In this document: positions 35,333 through 39,223 of the stretch, one piece after another
Layout: every line of letters begins with the position of its first letter
Position numbering within the stretch: position 1 is the stretch's first letter
NCBI GenBank assembly: GCA_019187225.1
Contig: JABAQQ010000011.1
Span: forward strand, 186,001 to 250,000
Source: Saprospiraceae bacterium
GTDB taxonomy: Bacteria > Bacteroidota > Bacteroidia > Chitinophagales > Saprospiraceae
Direction of reading: 5' to 3'
Length of the DNA stretch: 64,000 bases
The notes under the pieces: generated by a model
The model's database searches: none
Told to the model about the DNA's origin: nothing
The model's input: only the letters and a program-made list of their open reading frames with translations
Made by a program: the position numbers and the translations under genes

Positions 35333-35821
35333 ATGTTTACCGAACCATTCCGCATTGCCGCCAATGGCCACTTTGAATTTGATTTCCTCCCGGAAGATGC
35401 CAAAAATTTGGATGTAATCCCGGAGGGTGAAGGTGTTTACCACCTTTTGCTTAATGGCCAATCTTTTCACGCCGAACTGGTGGAGGCAGACTATGCGGCA
35501 CACCAATATGTATTTAAAATAAACGGCGCCAAATACACCCTGAAAATTTCCGACCACTACGAACGCCTCGCACAACAACTGGGCCTGCACGCCGGCGGCA
35601 GTCACAAAGTGAATGTCGTAAAAGCCCCCATGCCGGGCCTCGTGCTCAACATTATGGCGGAAGTGGGTCAAGATGTGCAGAAAGGCGATCCTCTCCTCAT
35701 CCTCGAAGCCATGAAAATGGAAAACGTCATAAAAGCAGCCAGCGAAGGGCGTGTGAAAGCCATTTTGGTACAGCAAGGCAGCGCGGTAGAAAAAGGACAA
35801 TTGCTGCTGGAACTGGAATGA
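35333..35821 (+). CDS. Biotin carboxyl carrier protein (biotin/lipoyl attachment domain)
   Basis: 162 residues. The last ~70 form the biotinyl domain (VKAPMPGLVLNIMAEVGQDVQKGDPLLILEAMKMEN) with target Lys128 in EAMKME. The N-terminal 90 residues resemble the linker region of acyl-CoA or pyruvate carboxylase carrier subunits in Bacteroidota. It should carry CO2 for a propionyl/acetyl-CoA carboxylase whose other subunits are elsewhere. It starts 8 nt after the phosphatase gene, so the two are co-transcribed. Confidence 0.88.
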   Translation: MFTEPFRIAANGHFEFDFLPEDAKNLDVIPEGEGVYHLLLNGQSFHAELVEADYAAHQYVFKINGAKYTLKISDHYERLAQQLGLHAGGSHKVNVVKAPMPGLVLNIMAEVGQDVQKGDPLLILEAMKMENVIKAASEGRVKAILVQQGSAVEKGQLLLELE

Positions 35822-36050
35822 TTCAGCCTTTTTTGGCCTCTCGACGAAGATTTTTTCTCGAAAAAAATTTTTTTTTAAAAAAATATATTTTTTTTCAAGT
35901 ATTTATTTTCAACAAACTTCCGAAAACGATTGCGATTGAATTGCAGAAAAATTGAATAATATAGCCAGAAATGGGTATTTTTTGCGGATTTATCTGTTTT
36001 TTTAGTAATTCCCTTCCGTACAACTTTTCAACAAAATCCAATTTCTGTTC
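35822..36050. other. AT-rich non-coding leader of the small-RNA array
   Basis: No gene. A short GC hairpin (CAGCCTTTTTTGGCCTC) follows the stop codon, then long A and T tracts. Such tracts upstream of a promoter can act as UP-like elements for the first small RNA unit. Confidence 0.4.
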
Positions 36051-36081
36051 TTTGCGGTTGTGCAGAACACCTGCACTTTTG
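36051..36081 (+). promoter_or_regulatory. Promoter of small RNA unit 1
   Basis: TTTG (36051-36054), 19 nt, then CACTTTTG (36074-36081). This fits the Bacteroidota -33/-7 consensus except for C in place of T in the -7 box. The same spacing recurs at units 2 and 3. Confidence 0.7.
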
Positions 36082-36085
36082 TATC

Positions 36086-36208
36086 ATCAATGAAAGAAAA
36101 CGGCGGCGAAACGAAAAGAAGCGGCAGATCATTGATCCGATTTGAAACTTTTCATGAGATTATATACGGGAAATCCGACGCGGCGCAAACGAGCGCCGCG
36201 TTTTTTTT
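36086..36208 (+). ncRNA. Candidate small RNA, unit 1
   Basis: About 120 nt, from the predicted start just after the promoter to the T8 tract. Stem 1 pairs ATCAATGA (36086-36093) with TCATTGAT (36129-36136) around a purine-rich loop. A single-stranded conserved segment follows (CTTTTCATGAGATT ... TACGGGAAA, 36148-36173). The terminator has an 8-bp stem CGCGGCGC/GCGCCGCG with loop AAACGA and T8. An ATG at the 5' end opens a frame that runs past the terminator and is not kept in units 2 and 3, so it is not a conserved peptide. No known RNA family recognised. Confidence 0.7.
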
Positions 36209-36220
36209 GTGCCTGCTGCA

Positions 36221-36281
36221 AGTAGGGCGGAAGTCCGTTCCGCCCGGATACACCCGCCGGAACGGATTTCCGGCGTACACT
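36221..36281. repeat. Palindromic GC-rich repeat (GGCGGAAGTCCGTTCCGCC type)
   Basis: Two adjacent hairpins, GGCGGAAGTCCGTTCCGCC and GCCGGAACGGATTTCCGGC, are also imperfect inverted copies of each other. It resembles dispersed REP-like palindromes. It lies between small RNA units 1 and 2. Confidence 0.6.
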
Positions 36282-36477
36282 GCCTGATAATAATATTTCT
36301 TTCAAAAAGAATCATTTTTTCAAAAGAGAAAAATATCAACAAATTGCGGAATATCTTGTGAAAATTCAGGTTTCTTTTTTGAAAAATTCTTCTTTTAAAG
36401 TCATTTTTGATTCGATTTGTCGTATTTTACTGTTCCGCCTTTAAAATAAACCATTCAACAAACATCGTTTTTTGTCC
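36282..36477. other. AT-rich spacer before small RNA unit 2
   Basis: No gene. Rich in A and T tracts, like the region before unit 1; probably part of the promoter region of unit 2. Confidence 0.35.
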
Positions 36478-36508
36478 TTTGCAAGTGGTACAAGCTCCCG
36501 CACTTTTG
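36478..36508 (+). promoter_or_regulatory. Promoter of small RNA unit 2
   Basis: TTTG (36478-36481), 19 nt, CACTTTTG (36501-36508): same boxes and same spacing as unit 1, while the 19-nt spacer differs in sequence. Confidence 0.7.
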
Positions 36509-36512
36509 TATC

Positions 36513-36634
36513 GTCAATCAGAAACAACGACGGCGCAGTGAAAACGAGGCAGCAGATTGACCAACCGATCCGAAACTTTTCATGAGATTATATACGGGAA
36601 ACCGTGCGGCGCAAACGAGCGCCGCATTTTTTTT
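36513..36634 (+). ncRNA. Candidate small RNA, unit 2
   Basis: Stem 1 is GTCAATC (36513-36519) with GATTGAC (36555-36561); against unit 1 both strands changed together. The segment CTTTTCATGAGATTATATAC, then GGGAAA (36576-36601), is identical to unit 1. The terminator stem TGCGGCGC/GCGCCGCA has a T-A pair where unit 1 has C-G, again compensatory, followed by T8. The unit 1 ATG is absent. Confidence 0.7.
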
Positions 36635-36723
36635 GCCCCTACCCCAAGTGTGGACGTTGGACAATTGGACATTGGACATTCGACTTGATTGAGTAAGTGG
36701 ATGATTTTCAATATCTTAAACAA

Positions 36724-36764
36724 AAAGCCCGGCAGTTTTTGCAAAAAACTGCCGGGCTTTTTTT
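36724..36764. terminator. Bidirectional 17-bp intrinsic terminator
   Basis: AAAGCCCGGCAGTTTTT (36724-36740) pairs perfectly with 36744-36760; the loop is 3 nt and a T7 run ends the structure. The A-run on the left makes it work on the minus strand too. It separates small RNA units 2 and 3. Confidence 0.8.
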
Positions 36765-36779
36765 GCTCCCTTTCTGTCC

Positions 36780-36810
36780 TTTCCCACCGCGTCCTATCGC
36801 CGCACCTTTG
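36780..36810 (+). promoter_or_regulatory. Promoter of small RNA unit 3
   Basis: TTTC (36780-36783), 19 nt, CACCTTTG (36803-36810). The -33 box has one change; the spacing is conserved. Confidence 0.6.
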
Positions 36811-36814
36811 TACT

Positions 36815-36941
36815 GTCAATGCGGGAGAACAAGAGCAAGGCAAAATGAGAATAGAGCATTGACCACCAGACTTGCATTTTTCATGAGATTAAAATAACGG
36901 GGCCGCCCCGGACGCGGCGCAAAAGAGCGCCGCGTTTTTTT
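36815..36941 (+). ncRNA. Candidate small RNA, unit 3 (divergent)
   Basis: Stem 1 is GTCAATGC (36815-36822) with GCATTGAC (36856-36863), a third pairing variant. The conserved part is TTTTTCATGAGATT (36877-36890) followed by ACGGGG. An extra GGGGC/GCCCC hairpin precedes the terminator CGCGGCGC-AAAAGA-GCGCCGCG with T7. The ATG near its start is stopped after nine codons, so it shares no peptide with unit 1. Confidence 0.65.
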
Positions 36942-36952
36942 GTTCGATTTTC

Positions 36953-37005
36953 ATTCATGAGACATAACAGCGGTTGCGAACGGATGGCAAAAGAGCGTTT
37001 CGTTT
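36953..37005 (+). ncRNA. Degenerate 3' relic of the small RNA unit
   Basis: TTCATGAGA, ATAACAGCGG and GGCAAAAGAGCG recall the 3' half of unit 3, but no promoter, stem 1 or intact terminator stem is left. Probably a decayed copy. Confidence 0.35.
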
Positions 37006-37042
37006 TCTCCGCATCCATTTTAAGAACGTACATTAGGCAAAA

Positions 37043-37077
37043 AAAGGCGTGGCGCAAAGGAGCGTTGCGCTTTTTTT
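37043..37077 (+). terminator. Terminator-like relic at the recQ 3' end
   Basis: Stem GCGCAA/TTGCGC (37052-37057 with 37065-37070), 7-nt loop, T7 at 37071-37077. The loop AGGAGCG recalls the unit terminators. A left-hand A7 run could let it end recQ transcription as well; the T-run overlaps the recQ stop codon (37076-37078). Confidence 0.55.
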
Positions 37078-39223
37078 ATTTTCGTGCTCGCCGGGCGTCA
37101 GCGATTGCAAAACGGATTTTGTCATAATTGTACCGTTCGTTGAAATGCTCGTAAATCGCCTTCATCTGATACGGCTCTTCAAACAAGGGCAATGCGCCCT
37201 GGATGATGTCGCATTCTTCGGGCGATACCCATCGGTCGAGGTCGAGTGTTTCGCCGCGCTCGTACATCTGGGCTAAGTGGGTCGTTACGGACTGCGCGCT
37301 GATCTGGCGCATTTCAGCGATCTCGTTCAGGGTGTGGCCTTTTTTGAACAATTCCCAGGTAACGAGTTGGCTGCTGCCGGTCACGCGGGCGCCTTCGTCC
37401 TTTTTTTCCAGCACGAAGCGACGGATCTCGCCGATGAAAGCGTCGCCGTAGAGTTGCAGTTTTCGTTCGCCAACGCCGCTTACCTGCAGGATATCAGCAT
37501 CGGTGAGCGGGCGTTTGTCGGCCATGTCGTCGAGCGTGGCGTCGTTGAAGATCAGGTAGGGCGGCACGCCCTGTTGTTGGGCGATACTGCGGCGCAGGGC
37601 CACGAGGCGGTTGAAGAGATCTTCTTTGAGCAGTTGTGATTTTGATTTTTCCGGAATATGCGGCAGGCGTCCTTTTTCACCGGGTTTGGCGGCTTTGGGT
37701 TGCGGCATGGCGAGTGGGACTTTTTTGCCCTCGAACAGGACCTTTCTGCCTTCTTCAGTCACGCGCAACTGGTTCTGGGCGTCGTAGGCGATCTCGATGA
37801 GGCCGGTGTGCAGCATTTGCGACAACAGGAAAAGCCAGTCGTCATAAGCATATTCTTTGCCTGCGCCATAGGTTTTGATCTGGTGGAAGTTGTTCTCAAT
37901 CACCTCCTGACGCCGACTGCCGCGGAGGATATCTATCAGCAGGTTCATGCCCACTTTTTCCCCGGTGCGCAGGATGGCCGACAGGGCCTTTTGCGCGGCC
38001 ACCGTGCCGTCGAATTGCCGGGGTGGGTTGAGGCACACGTCGCAATTGCCACAGCTGCGGTCGTAGGGTTCGCCGAAATAAAAAAGGACGGTTTTTCGCC
38101 GGCACACGGGCGCTTCGGCGAATTGGTACATGCGTTCGAGTTTGGCGACTTTGAGCGCCTTTTGTTCCGGACTGGCTTCGCCCTGTTCGATCATGTCGCG
38201 ATACACCATCACGTCCTGGTAACTGAAAAACAGCAGCGCCTCGGCGGGCAAACCGTCGCGTCCGCAGCGCCCCACTTCCTGGTAATAGCCTTCTAAGTTG
38301 CGCGGCAGGTTGTAGTGGATCACGAAGCGCACGTTGCTTTTGTCAATGCCCATGCCGAAGGCGATCGTAGCGCATATAATAGGCGTGCGGTCGTTGATGA
38401 AATCCTCCTGCGTTTTGCTGCGCTGCGCGGGCGGCACTTCGGCATGGTAGTGGGCGGCCCGGAAGCCGCGGGCGTTGAGTTTTTCGGCGAGTTCTTCGCA
38501 GGTTTTGCGGGCGAGGCAATAGATGATGCCCGACTGATTGGGGTGCTGTTTCAAAAAATCCACGATCTGTTCGAAACGCCGCTGTCCGGGCCGGACGGTA
38601 AGTTTGATGTTGGGCCGGTCGAAAGAGGCGACAAACCAGACGGGGTCGCGCAATTGAAGTTGATCCACAATGTCCTTGCGCGTCAATTTGTCGGCAGTGG
38701 CGGTGAGCGCCAGCATGGGCACGTCGGGGAATTGTTCTTTCAGAAAACGCAACTGCGTGTATTCCGGACGAAAATCGTGTCCCCACGCCGAGATACAATG
38801 CGCTTCGTCCACTGCAAAAAGACTGATCTTCAGGCGCTTGAGCAAAGGTTGAAAACCCTGCGACACGAGTTTTTCCGGGCTGACGTAGAGCAATTTCACA
38901 TAGCCGGCCAGCAGGGCATTTTCGACATTGCGGGTTTGTTCCGGCGTGAGTGTACTGTTGATATAGGCCGCCGGGATACCGTTTTCGCTCAGTCCCTCCA
39001 CCTGATCCTTCATGAGTGCGATGAGCGGACTGACGATGACAGCCACGCCATCCATCGTGATGGCCGGGATCTGGTAGCAGATGCTTTTGCCACCACCGGT
39101 AGGCATCAGTACGAGCGCATCCTTCTTATCGTATACTGTCTGGATGATCTCTGCCTGAAGGGGGCGGAACCGGTCGTAACCGAAGTATTTTTTGAGGGCG
39201 GATGAAGCGTGCGCGAGGGTCAT
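37076..39223 (-). CDS. recQ: ATP-dependent DNA helicase RecQ
   Basis: 715 residues from ATG 39223. Helicase core: Walker A PTGGGKS (41-47), DEAH (139-142), aromatic-rich loop AHCISAWGHDFRPEY, and motif VI QEVGRCGRDG. Then the RQC zinc site (CRRKTVLFYFGEPYDRSCGNCDVC) and winged helix. An HRDC domain (LVALRRSIAQQQGVPPYLIFND) and a C-terminal helix-turn-helix (TWELFKKGHTLNEIAEMRQISAQSV) follow. RecQ unwinds recombination and replication intermediates 3' to 5'. It is monocistronic. Confidence 0.95.
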   Translation of the reverse strand: MTLAHASSALKKYFGYDRFRPLQAEIIQTVYDKKDALVLMPTGGGKSICYQIPAITMDGVAVIVSPLIALMKDQVEGLSENGIPAAYINSTLTPEQTRNVENALLAGYVKLLYVSPEKLVSQGFQPLLKRLKISLFAVDEAHCISAWGHDFRPEYTQLRFLKEQFPDVPMLALTATADKLTRKDIVDQLQLRDPVWFVASFDRPNIKLTVRPGQRRFEQIVDFLKQHPNQSGIIYCLARKTCEELAEKLNARGFRAAHYHAEVPPAQRSKTQEDFINDRTPIICATIAFGMGIDKSNVRFVIHYNLPRNLEGYYQEVGRCGRDGLPAEALLFFSYQDVMVYRDMIEQGEASPEQKALKVAKLERMYQFAEAPVCRRKTVLFYFGEPYDRSCGNCDVCLNPPRQFDGTVAAQKALSAILRTGEKVGMNLLIDILRGSRRQEVIENNFHQIKTYGAGKEYAYDDWLFLLSQMLHTGLIEIAYDAQNQLRVTEEGRKVLFEGKKVPLAMPQPKAAKPGEKGRLPHIPEKSKSQLLKEDLFNRLVALRRSIAQQQGVPPYLIFNDATLDDMADKRPLTDADILQVSGVGERKLQLYGDAFIGEIRRFVLEKKDEGARVTGSSQLVTWELFKKGHTLNEIAEMRQISAQSVTTHLAQMYERGETLDLDRWVSPEECDIIQGALPLFEEPYQMKAIYEHFNERYNYDKIRFAIADARRARK

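Follow-up and report, generated by a model that had tools for sequence, protein, structure and literature searches.

The window (the whole 64,000-nucleotide stretch of a Saprospiraceae genome analysed here) carries three tandem units, at 36051-36208, 36478-36634 and 36780-36941, that share one design and almost certainly represent an unnamed family of small RNAs (sRNAs). Their 3' half is a module, a 14-nt word UUCAUG(A/G)GAUUAUA followed by a hairpin. Judged from sequence, the array is a genus-level branch of this wider module, and we regard its three genes as one branch of an RNA family that extends across most sampled genera of environmental Saprospiraceae and into some phages.

Each unit comprises a 7-8 bp helix at the 5' end of the RNA, a purine-rich loop, the near-invariant segment UUUUCAUGAGAUUA and an intrinsic terminator; it would constitute a stand-alone sRNA gene of about 120 nt, transcribed from a Bacteroidota-type promoter, TTTG-N19-CAnnTTTG, recognised by its consensus only. 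The features of the array are as follows.

36051-36081, + strand: unit 1, promoter-like boxes TTTG-N19-CACTTTTG (pattern scan); from their position the RNA 5' end is expected near 36086
36086-36136, + strand: unit 1, 5' helix ATCAATGA/TCATTGAT with a purine-rich 35-nt loop (covariation, stem check)
36149-36174, + strand: unit 1, conserved segment TTTTCATGAGATTATATACGGGAAAT with an A-type word (alignment)
36178-36208, + strand: unit 1, intrinsic terminator with a 9-bp stem, loop AAACGA and T8 (terminator scan, covariation)
36478-36508, + strand: unit 2, promoter-like boxes TTTG-N19-CACTTTTG (pattern scan)
36513-36561, + strand: unit 2, 5' helix GTCAATC/GATTGAC and its loop (covariation, stem check)
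36577-36602, + strand: unit 2, conserved segment TTTTCATGAGATTATATACGGGAAAC (alignment)
36604-36634, + strand: unit 2, intrinsic terminator with a T-A swap in the stem and T8 (sequence, terminator scan)
36780-36810, + strand: unit 3, promoter-like boxes TTTC-N19-CACCTTTG (pattern scan)
36815-36863, + strand: unit 3, 5' helix GTCAATGC/GCATTGAC and its loop (covariation, stem check)
36878-36893, + strand: unit 3, diverged segment TTTTCATGAGATTAAA, without the exact TTCATGRGATTATA (sequence)
36912-36941, + strand: unit 3, intrinsic terminator with loop AAAAGA and T7 (terminator scan)
36950-37015, + strand: probable decayed fourth module, TTCATGAGACATAACAGCGG and then a hairpin with a GCAAAAGAGC loop (by eye, fold)
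37040-37077, + strand: further terminator of similar design, GGCGCAAAGGAGCG (fold, weak profile match of 18.6 bits)

The initial annotation had described a tandem triple array with a common promoter spacing, a compensated 5' helix, the CATGAGATT box and a GC terminator, a description that proves correct. The pattern TTT[GC]-N19-CAnnTTTG, with the exact 19-bp spacing claimed for every copy, matches exactly three times in the whole 64-kb window, at 36051, 36478 and 36780 of the + strand and nowhere on the - strand; stem 1 is perfect in all three units with its arms as first quoted (36086-36093/36129-36136, 36513-36519/36555-36561 and 36815-36822/36856-36863, enclosing 35, 35 and 33 nt respectively); and CATGAGATT, put forward as a conserved 3' segment, is found once per unit, at 36153, 36581 and 36882. 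As for the terminators, the T7-8 runs and the T-A swap of unit 2 stand, whereas the 8-bp arm becomes 9 bp on re-reading. Units 1 and 2 are 76% identical to each other and 59-60% identical to unit 3, and 11 terminator-like sites fall in 35800-37120 versus 2.0 in shuffles. The probable decayed fourth module and the further terminator at 37040-37077 were overlooked in the first reading; the module lies directly behind unit 3, and no promoter was seen for it.

Upstream of the array, two genes resemble those of a SpoIIE phosphatase and a biotin carrier protein, each scoring under the curated NCBIfam cut-off; the downstream, convergent gene is recQ (TIGR01389, 757 bits, cut-off 640), which the terminator at 37040-37077, with its A- and T-runs, may end too. 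Two other elements lie among the units: a long hairpin, GCCCGGCAGTTTTTGCAAAAAACTGCCGGGC, at 36722-36764 in the spacer separating units 2 and 3, which is preceded by an A-run and followed by a T-run and resembles a bidirectional terminator but serves no obvious gene; and a 23-nt sequence, CAAGTAGGGCGGAAGTCCGTTCC, at 36218-36240, repeated exactly on another contig of the same genome (G000:C1:49800-49822), which looks like an intergenic repeat unrelated to the units.

Relatives of the units are readily found within the genus. Queried as DNA, unit 2 matched 35 of 60 genomes, counting its own. Every match fell within the 37 genomes of the same genus and none in the other 23, so the array is not a product of chance. 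When the window and 60 fetched stretches were searched with a profile, 57 loci yielded 104 units scoring above 30 bits; full-length units, the window's included, number 98 in 56 loci, and 93 of these bear the segment TTTCATGAGATT. Among the 98, TTTN stands exactly 19 nt before the second promoter-like box in 72, and this second box is absent by pattern in five. The nearest downstream gene is a convergent recQ in 18 of the 57 loci, and we take the recQ-adjacent site as the old site of the array. A pattern scan of named genomes matched 61 stretches, 59 of them in MAGs titled Saprospiraceae, Saprospirales, Lewinellaceae, Chitinophagales, Bacteroidetes or Bacteroidota; the remaining two (Mesobacillus and Thermoanaerobaculia) were taken as chance. 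The family name Saprospiraceae used here is based on these titles. A covariance search with the unit, run under stricter filters, detected relatives in 14 of 396 genomes of the order; of these, 13 belong to the same genus, and the weakly matched G382 (E 3.8e-4) is from another genus of Saprospiraceae. Five loci of g1 also carry a diverged unit type, CATGAGATTATACAAGGG, with a stem GGTCC..GGGGCC and then ATTT (L045:7359, L061:7574, L077:3903, L079:4435 and L080:5499); it is the last of its array, and recQ then follows in four of the five, not being seen in L079. Two genomes counted as different species (G008:C30, L056, and G023:C449, L060) possess near-identical three-unit arrays, reflecting either close relatives or a shared misbinned contig.

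The earlier remark that no known RNA family was recognised agrees with Rfam, which yielded no match at the gathering threshold either in the window or in 20 array loci; together with the stems kept across genomes, this supports the claim of three sRNA genes. Relaxing the limit to E<=1 adds eight sub-threshold matches in 36000-37100, which without exception cover the hairpin at 36722-36764 and account for none of the units, the best having an E of 0.065 and 23.9 bits against a cut-off of 55; neither these nor seven more in seven loci were accepted as real. In the open-access literature searched we found neither the word nor Saprospira together with sRNA. The varied neighborhoods also led us to reject two further candidates: a cis-regulator of panB, recQ or the biotin-carrier gene, since neighbors differ between loci; and a ToxI-type RNA antitoxin of a type III toxin–antitoxin system, whose repeats would sit directly upstream of a toxin gene, as judged from neighbor variation, the commonest clustered neighbor being recQ in 18 of 57 loci.

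Evidence that the units act as RNA comes from their helices, which relatives in other genomes keep via compensatory changes, as had been proposed from the three window copies. We used a MAFFT alignment (A2) of 58 genus units, not fitted to structure: a score of at least 80 and less than 93% likeness gave 65 of 92 units, from which eight were removed (one near-copy, the rest with short or diverged loops) and to which window unit 1 was added, the 3' arm of its stem 1 being misaligned. Both helices covary in A2, with double changes in 11 of 15 pairs. The eight-pair terminator is paired in 99.8% of cells, with seven pairs changed on both sides; the seven-pair stem 1 is paired in 93.6%, with four pairs so changed, values somewhat flattered because at least four of the eight removed rows lack a 6-bp stem 1. 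Double-change cells number 132 versus 35.7 in shuffles, none of 500 shuffles reaches any measure, and 96.9% of cells pair under the true structure versus 28-50% under slid ones. A 6-bp stem 1 can form in 86 of the 93 box-bearing full-length units (the five of 98 without the exact segment TTTCATGAGATT were left unscored) versus 4.6% with shuffled loops. As the other seven units cannot form it, and a viral copy (L330, below) does without it, the 5' helix is not essential everywhere. Its support is from covariation and not from energy, because minimum-energy folds of single window units lack it; RNAalifold on the alignment likewise recovers the terminator and not stem 1. The terminator loop is AAACGA in 77 of 93 units, and the stems take at least 18 forms (two of the 93, L037_4730 and L043_7157, being misread by the pattern). 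Stems are identical in 60 of 105 within-genome pairs, and in 28 of 48 when the units are on different stretches, versus 7.8% of 4173 pairs between genomes. Since stems often match within genomes and rarely between them, the copies are homogenised or freshly duplicated.

Beyond the genus, it is the module that can be followed. In Saprospiraceae, 305 of 398 genomes, from 101 of 112 genera, contain the exact word TTCATGRGATTATA, with 20 matches for a reversed-pattern control; as the search used an exact pattern, the frequency of variants is not readable from these counts. Variant copies are seen in unit 3, in L331 and downstream of the pair in L242. Outside the family, in the same class, 22 of 292 genomes have the exact word (reversed control, 10), none of these loci has two copies, and 13 of 24 fetched lie inside ORFs; thus, in these samples, the repeated word is confined to Saprospiraceae. 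We examined 103 word contexts from other loci, taking 95 as modules and eight, chosen by eye beforehand (five in ORFs, three single and intergenic), as stray. A significant hairpin follows the word in 91 of the 95 modules (z<-2; median -4.3) and in none of the eight stray contexts. The pattern [CTA]AnnTTTG[TA]A lies within 260 nt upstream in 25 of 52 stretches, 15 times as CATATTTGTA, a count taken with no background control, which suggests that the 5' halves are related too.

The word comes in two types that have CAUG in common and differ on both sides of it (UUUUUCAUGAG and AUAUGUUCAUGGG). The G-type, AUAUGUUCAUGGGAUUAUAAUUUG, is the common form among the words read; the A-type, UUUUCAUGAGAUUAUA, was matched by 77 of 396 genomes from 23 of 112 genera (control, 1), and in the window's genus 28 of 29 sampled genomes have it. 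Both types occur in the window's genome, the A-type in the recQ array and the G-type in a two-module locus upstream of panB. No panB was seen next to other word loci among the flanks read by eye. In genus g27 the exact word is absent from nearly all sampled genomes, with three single matches and no A-type match.

Many members string two to seven modules on one apparent transcript, a description arrived at by eye from a lack of internal promoters and T-runs. At the G382 locus, TTTGTATCGTCAAC with a 5' helix precedes three copies of TTCATGGGATTATA, each with a hairpin and only the last with a T-run; in G005, from the window's own genus, one promoter-like start is followed by four words of the genus's own type, with a long T-run only at the last hairpin. 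Word counts include three in genus g75, seven at 161-172 bp spacing in G578, and two on contig C30 of the window's genome. Most units of the window's genus, including each of those in the window, have one word per RNA, which is how an ordinary sRNA would look. Module number is raised in two ways: by whole-gene repeats, as in the window, or by modules strung together with non-terminating hairpins, as in G005, other genera and the second locus of the window's genome.

The word is further present in eight viral contigs, as the G-type in three and the A-type in five; their phage or host status was judged only by tRNA-Met, integrase and repressor-like genes. In seven of the eight a hairpin with z below -2 lies downstream (L327 has z -1.65), and in most copies the word is kept and the stems after it differ. 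L330 offers a short version composed of a promoter-like CATACCTTTG, the word and a terminator; because it lacks the 5' helix, word plus hairpin is the smallest form found. In L329 and L333 the word is downstream of a tRNA-Met gene, the order being tRNA-Met (GGG/CCC anticodon stem, initiator-like by eye), hairpin, word, hairpin (L329:4157-4380 and L333:818-1010). An integrase and a repressor-like gene lie near the word in L329 and L332, and in L332 the word overlaps the stop codon of an ORF. Downstream of the word in L329 (4724-6013), L332 (4731-6506) and L333 (1184-3382) is a large ORF with hydrophobic stretches (by eye), for which no PHROG match was obtained in any of the three.

Based on this architecture alone, we advance the following mechanism, to which we assign a probability of roughly 0.45. 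The RNA would be a trans-acting, multivalent binder, titrating one conserved partner. That partner, most likely an RNA-binding regulator or another RNA, would recognise the word where it stands between two helices; the number of modules would set the dose; and phages might carry single modules to draw on the same partner. The multi-word RNAs favor titration because a titrating RNA needs several copies of its motif and an sRNA with one seed does not. A more specific version, which we offer tentatively as rather unlikely, holds that the identical 14-nt words, each with its own hairpin, are strung like beads on a nearly family-wide decoy for one global RNA-binding regulator, and that temperate phages copy single beads to exploit that regulator. 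Searches of the window's genome (G000) for the three usual families of RNA-binding protein, Hfq, CsrA and RRM_1, gave no match, while control genomes did return matches: PF00076 (RRM_1) had none in G000 and matches in two of 14 controls, one a Bacteroides, and PF02599 (CsrA) none in G000 and matches in three of 14. The predicted openness of the word is modest, with a mean unpaired probability of 0.58 versus 0.47 for the whole RNA, and 0.47 when the upstream part is shuffled (first 30 of 58 rows). As candidate RNA partners, the 16S, 23S and 5S rRNAs of E. coli K-12, a far surrogate for those of the hosts, and ten tRNAs were rejected, since duplex energies resembled those of shuffled segments (the lowest, G-type with 5S, was equalled in 14 of 100 shuffles). 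A match between AUGRG and the CUCAU anticodon loop of tRNA-Met, with A or G opposite U33, was also set aside, as it would span only 5 nt.

We favor titration over an antisense sRNA, a possibility that is tenable yet somewhat doubtful. Here, the word would be a seed for mRNAs with CAU opposite the start codon (target UAAUCYCAUGAAnn), and copies would add dose, in the manner of FopS in Bacteroides. The word is indeed complementary to AUG plus the common gene start AUGAAAA; the divergence of the A- and G-types to either side of a shared CAUG is what two seed specificities would show; and the FopS RNAs of the same phylum are reported to bind start-codon regions (PMC11697453). Across 875 starts, the A-type had 55 8-nt and 11 9-nt matches versus 15.2 and 3.2 for freely shuffled segments, and versus eight and two inside genes. 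This excess disappears when the core TTTTCAT is kept and only the rest shuffled (46 versus 36.5 at 8 nt; 11 versus 11.8 at 9). The G-type had 17 versus 5.0 at 9 nt with free shuffling, and 11 versus 4.2 with the core kept, a weak excess that 20 of 300 shuffles equal. Duplex energies with the 875 starts are no better than for shuffled segments. Over 1406 starts, A-type matches through the ATG number 69 versus 29 at 8 nt and 16 versus 8 at 9 nt, which we ascribe to the A-run after the ATG; a 10-nt match through the ATG occurs once and never a longer one, against expectations of 2.1 for the A-type and 2.5 for the G-type (20 permutations). In g1 DNA the complement of the G-type 9-mer is over-represented (394 versus 279 expected in an order-2 model), which we do not count since G-type arrays were unmasked and the model ignores codon use; that of the A-type occurs 362 times versus 420 expected. 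Several identical seeds on one RNA would, moreover, be odd. The evidence for start-codon pairing, from tests covering 1.2 Mb of one genome, the window and 60 loci, is mixed but weak: in this part of the genes it has no clear support beyond a short core.

A less probable reading, to which we would give only a small chance, treats the word and hairpin as a 3'-end element, a processing or stability tag that ends an sRNA, an mRNA or a phage tRNA precursor. It draws on the viral words placed after tRNA-Met (L329 and L333) or over a stop codon (L332), and on some A-type words outside the genus (L353, L344-L347) which, by eye, lie in apparent 3' UTRs with a terminator after them and no evident promoter. 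Nevertheless, such a tag leaves unexplained both the many stand-alone, repeated loci and the conserved 5' helix.

That the word encodes a leader peptide or minigene (AUG AGA UUA or AUG UUC AUG GGA UUA UAA) is highly improbable. AUG is part of the word, and of 100 contexts in which the word is followed by a fold below -9, 77 have an A after UAUA, making UAA. Against this, the reading frame is broken within the genus by 2-nt deletions immediately behind the word; the A- and G-types differ non-synonymously (AGA/GGA), while the 58 genus units of the alignment, whose selection did not depend on the letters of the word, keep TTTCATGAGATT unvaried even at third positions; and by eye many units of the genus lack an early stop. 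The initial annotation had likewise held that the ATG of unit 1 is not conserved, and the aligned units confirm this. Finally, a DNA-level repeat, i.e., a phage attachment core or REP-like element mistaken for RNA, is the most improbable reading and is largely refuted by the covariation: the viral contigs, two with integrases, do have the A-type word plus ACGGG in common with the arrays, about 60 nt of L330 look, by eye, like host units, and terminator stems are homogenised within genomes, but an RNA is needed to account for the promoter spacing, the strand polarity and the compensation seen in two helices, most viral copies combine the kept word with different stems, and copy number stays low in the listed genomes.

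To our knowledge, sRNA regulation in Bacteroidota outside Bacteroides has been little studied. Given a 14-nt word unchanged in 101 of 112 sampled genera, the partner of the proposed titrating RNA should be as conserved, and the viral copies suggest that it matters to phages too. The module is therefore a ready bait that could reveal a global post-transcriptional regulator of Saprospiraceae.

Several known systems present parallels. Titrating RNAs of the CsrB/RsmZ type carry several copies of a short motif between hairpins along one RNA, and the apparent transcripts of G005, g75 and other genera, where several words follow one promoter-like start, may do the same; in contrast to such RNAs, the word is 14 nt and not a GGA loop motif, no CsrA was found in the window's genome, and copies have also multiplied as separate genes. 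Sibling sRNAs, with several near-identical genes in one genome, are typified by LhrC1-5 of Listeria and NgncR_162/163 of Neisseria, whereas the copies described here are often fused on one apparent RNA, and no Rfam match relates them to either. The family resembles 6S-flavo, pan and other Bacteroidetes RNAs of Rfam in being intergenic and found by comparative genomics. The pan RNAs are reported to be mostly tandem (PMC2864571), and the two-module locus of the window's genome lies upstream of panB; the family differs from these RNAs in that there is no covariance match at the gathering threshold (for 6S-flavo, RF01685, and its relatives, none even at E<=1 in 36000-37100), and by eye panB is not seen at other loci. 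Nearest in kind is the FopS/GibS group of Bacteroides thetaiotaomicron, described as paralogous sRNAs in multiple copies that have sigma-ABfr promoters, an intrinsic terminator and a conserved stretch left single-stranded, with a copy in a phage and RbpB as RRM protein (PMC11697453). The GibS model RF04182 has no match in the window, and its match in L169 (35 bits against a cut-off of 115, E 0.24) is on the opposite strand over another hairpin. The present family differs in that no RRM protein was found in the window's genome, start-codon targeting is without clear support, and the word stands just before the terminator and can repeat on one RNA. What it has in common with FopS/GibS is the phylum, paralogous copies, promoters of their own (by consensus only), an intrinsic terminator and carriage by phage.
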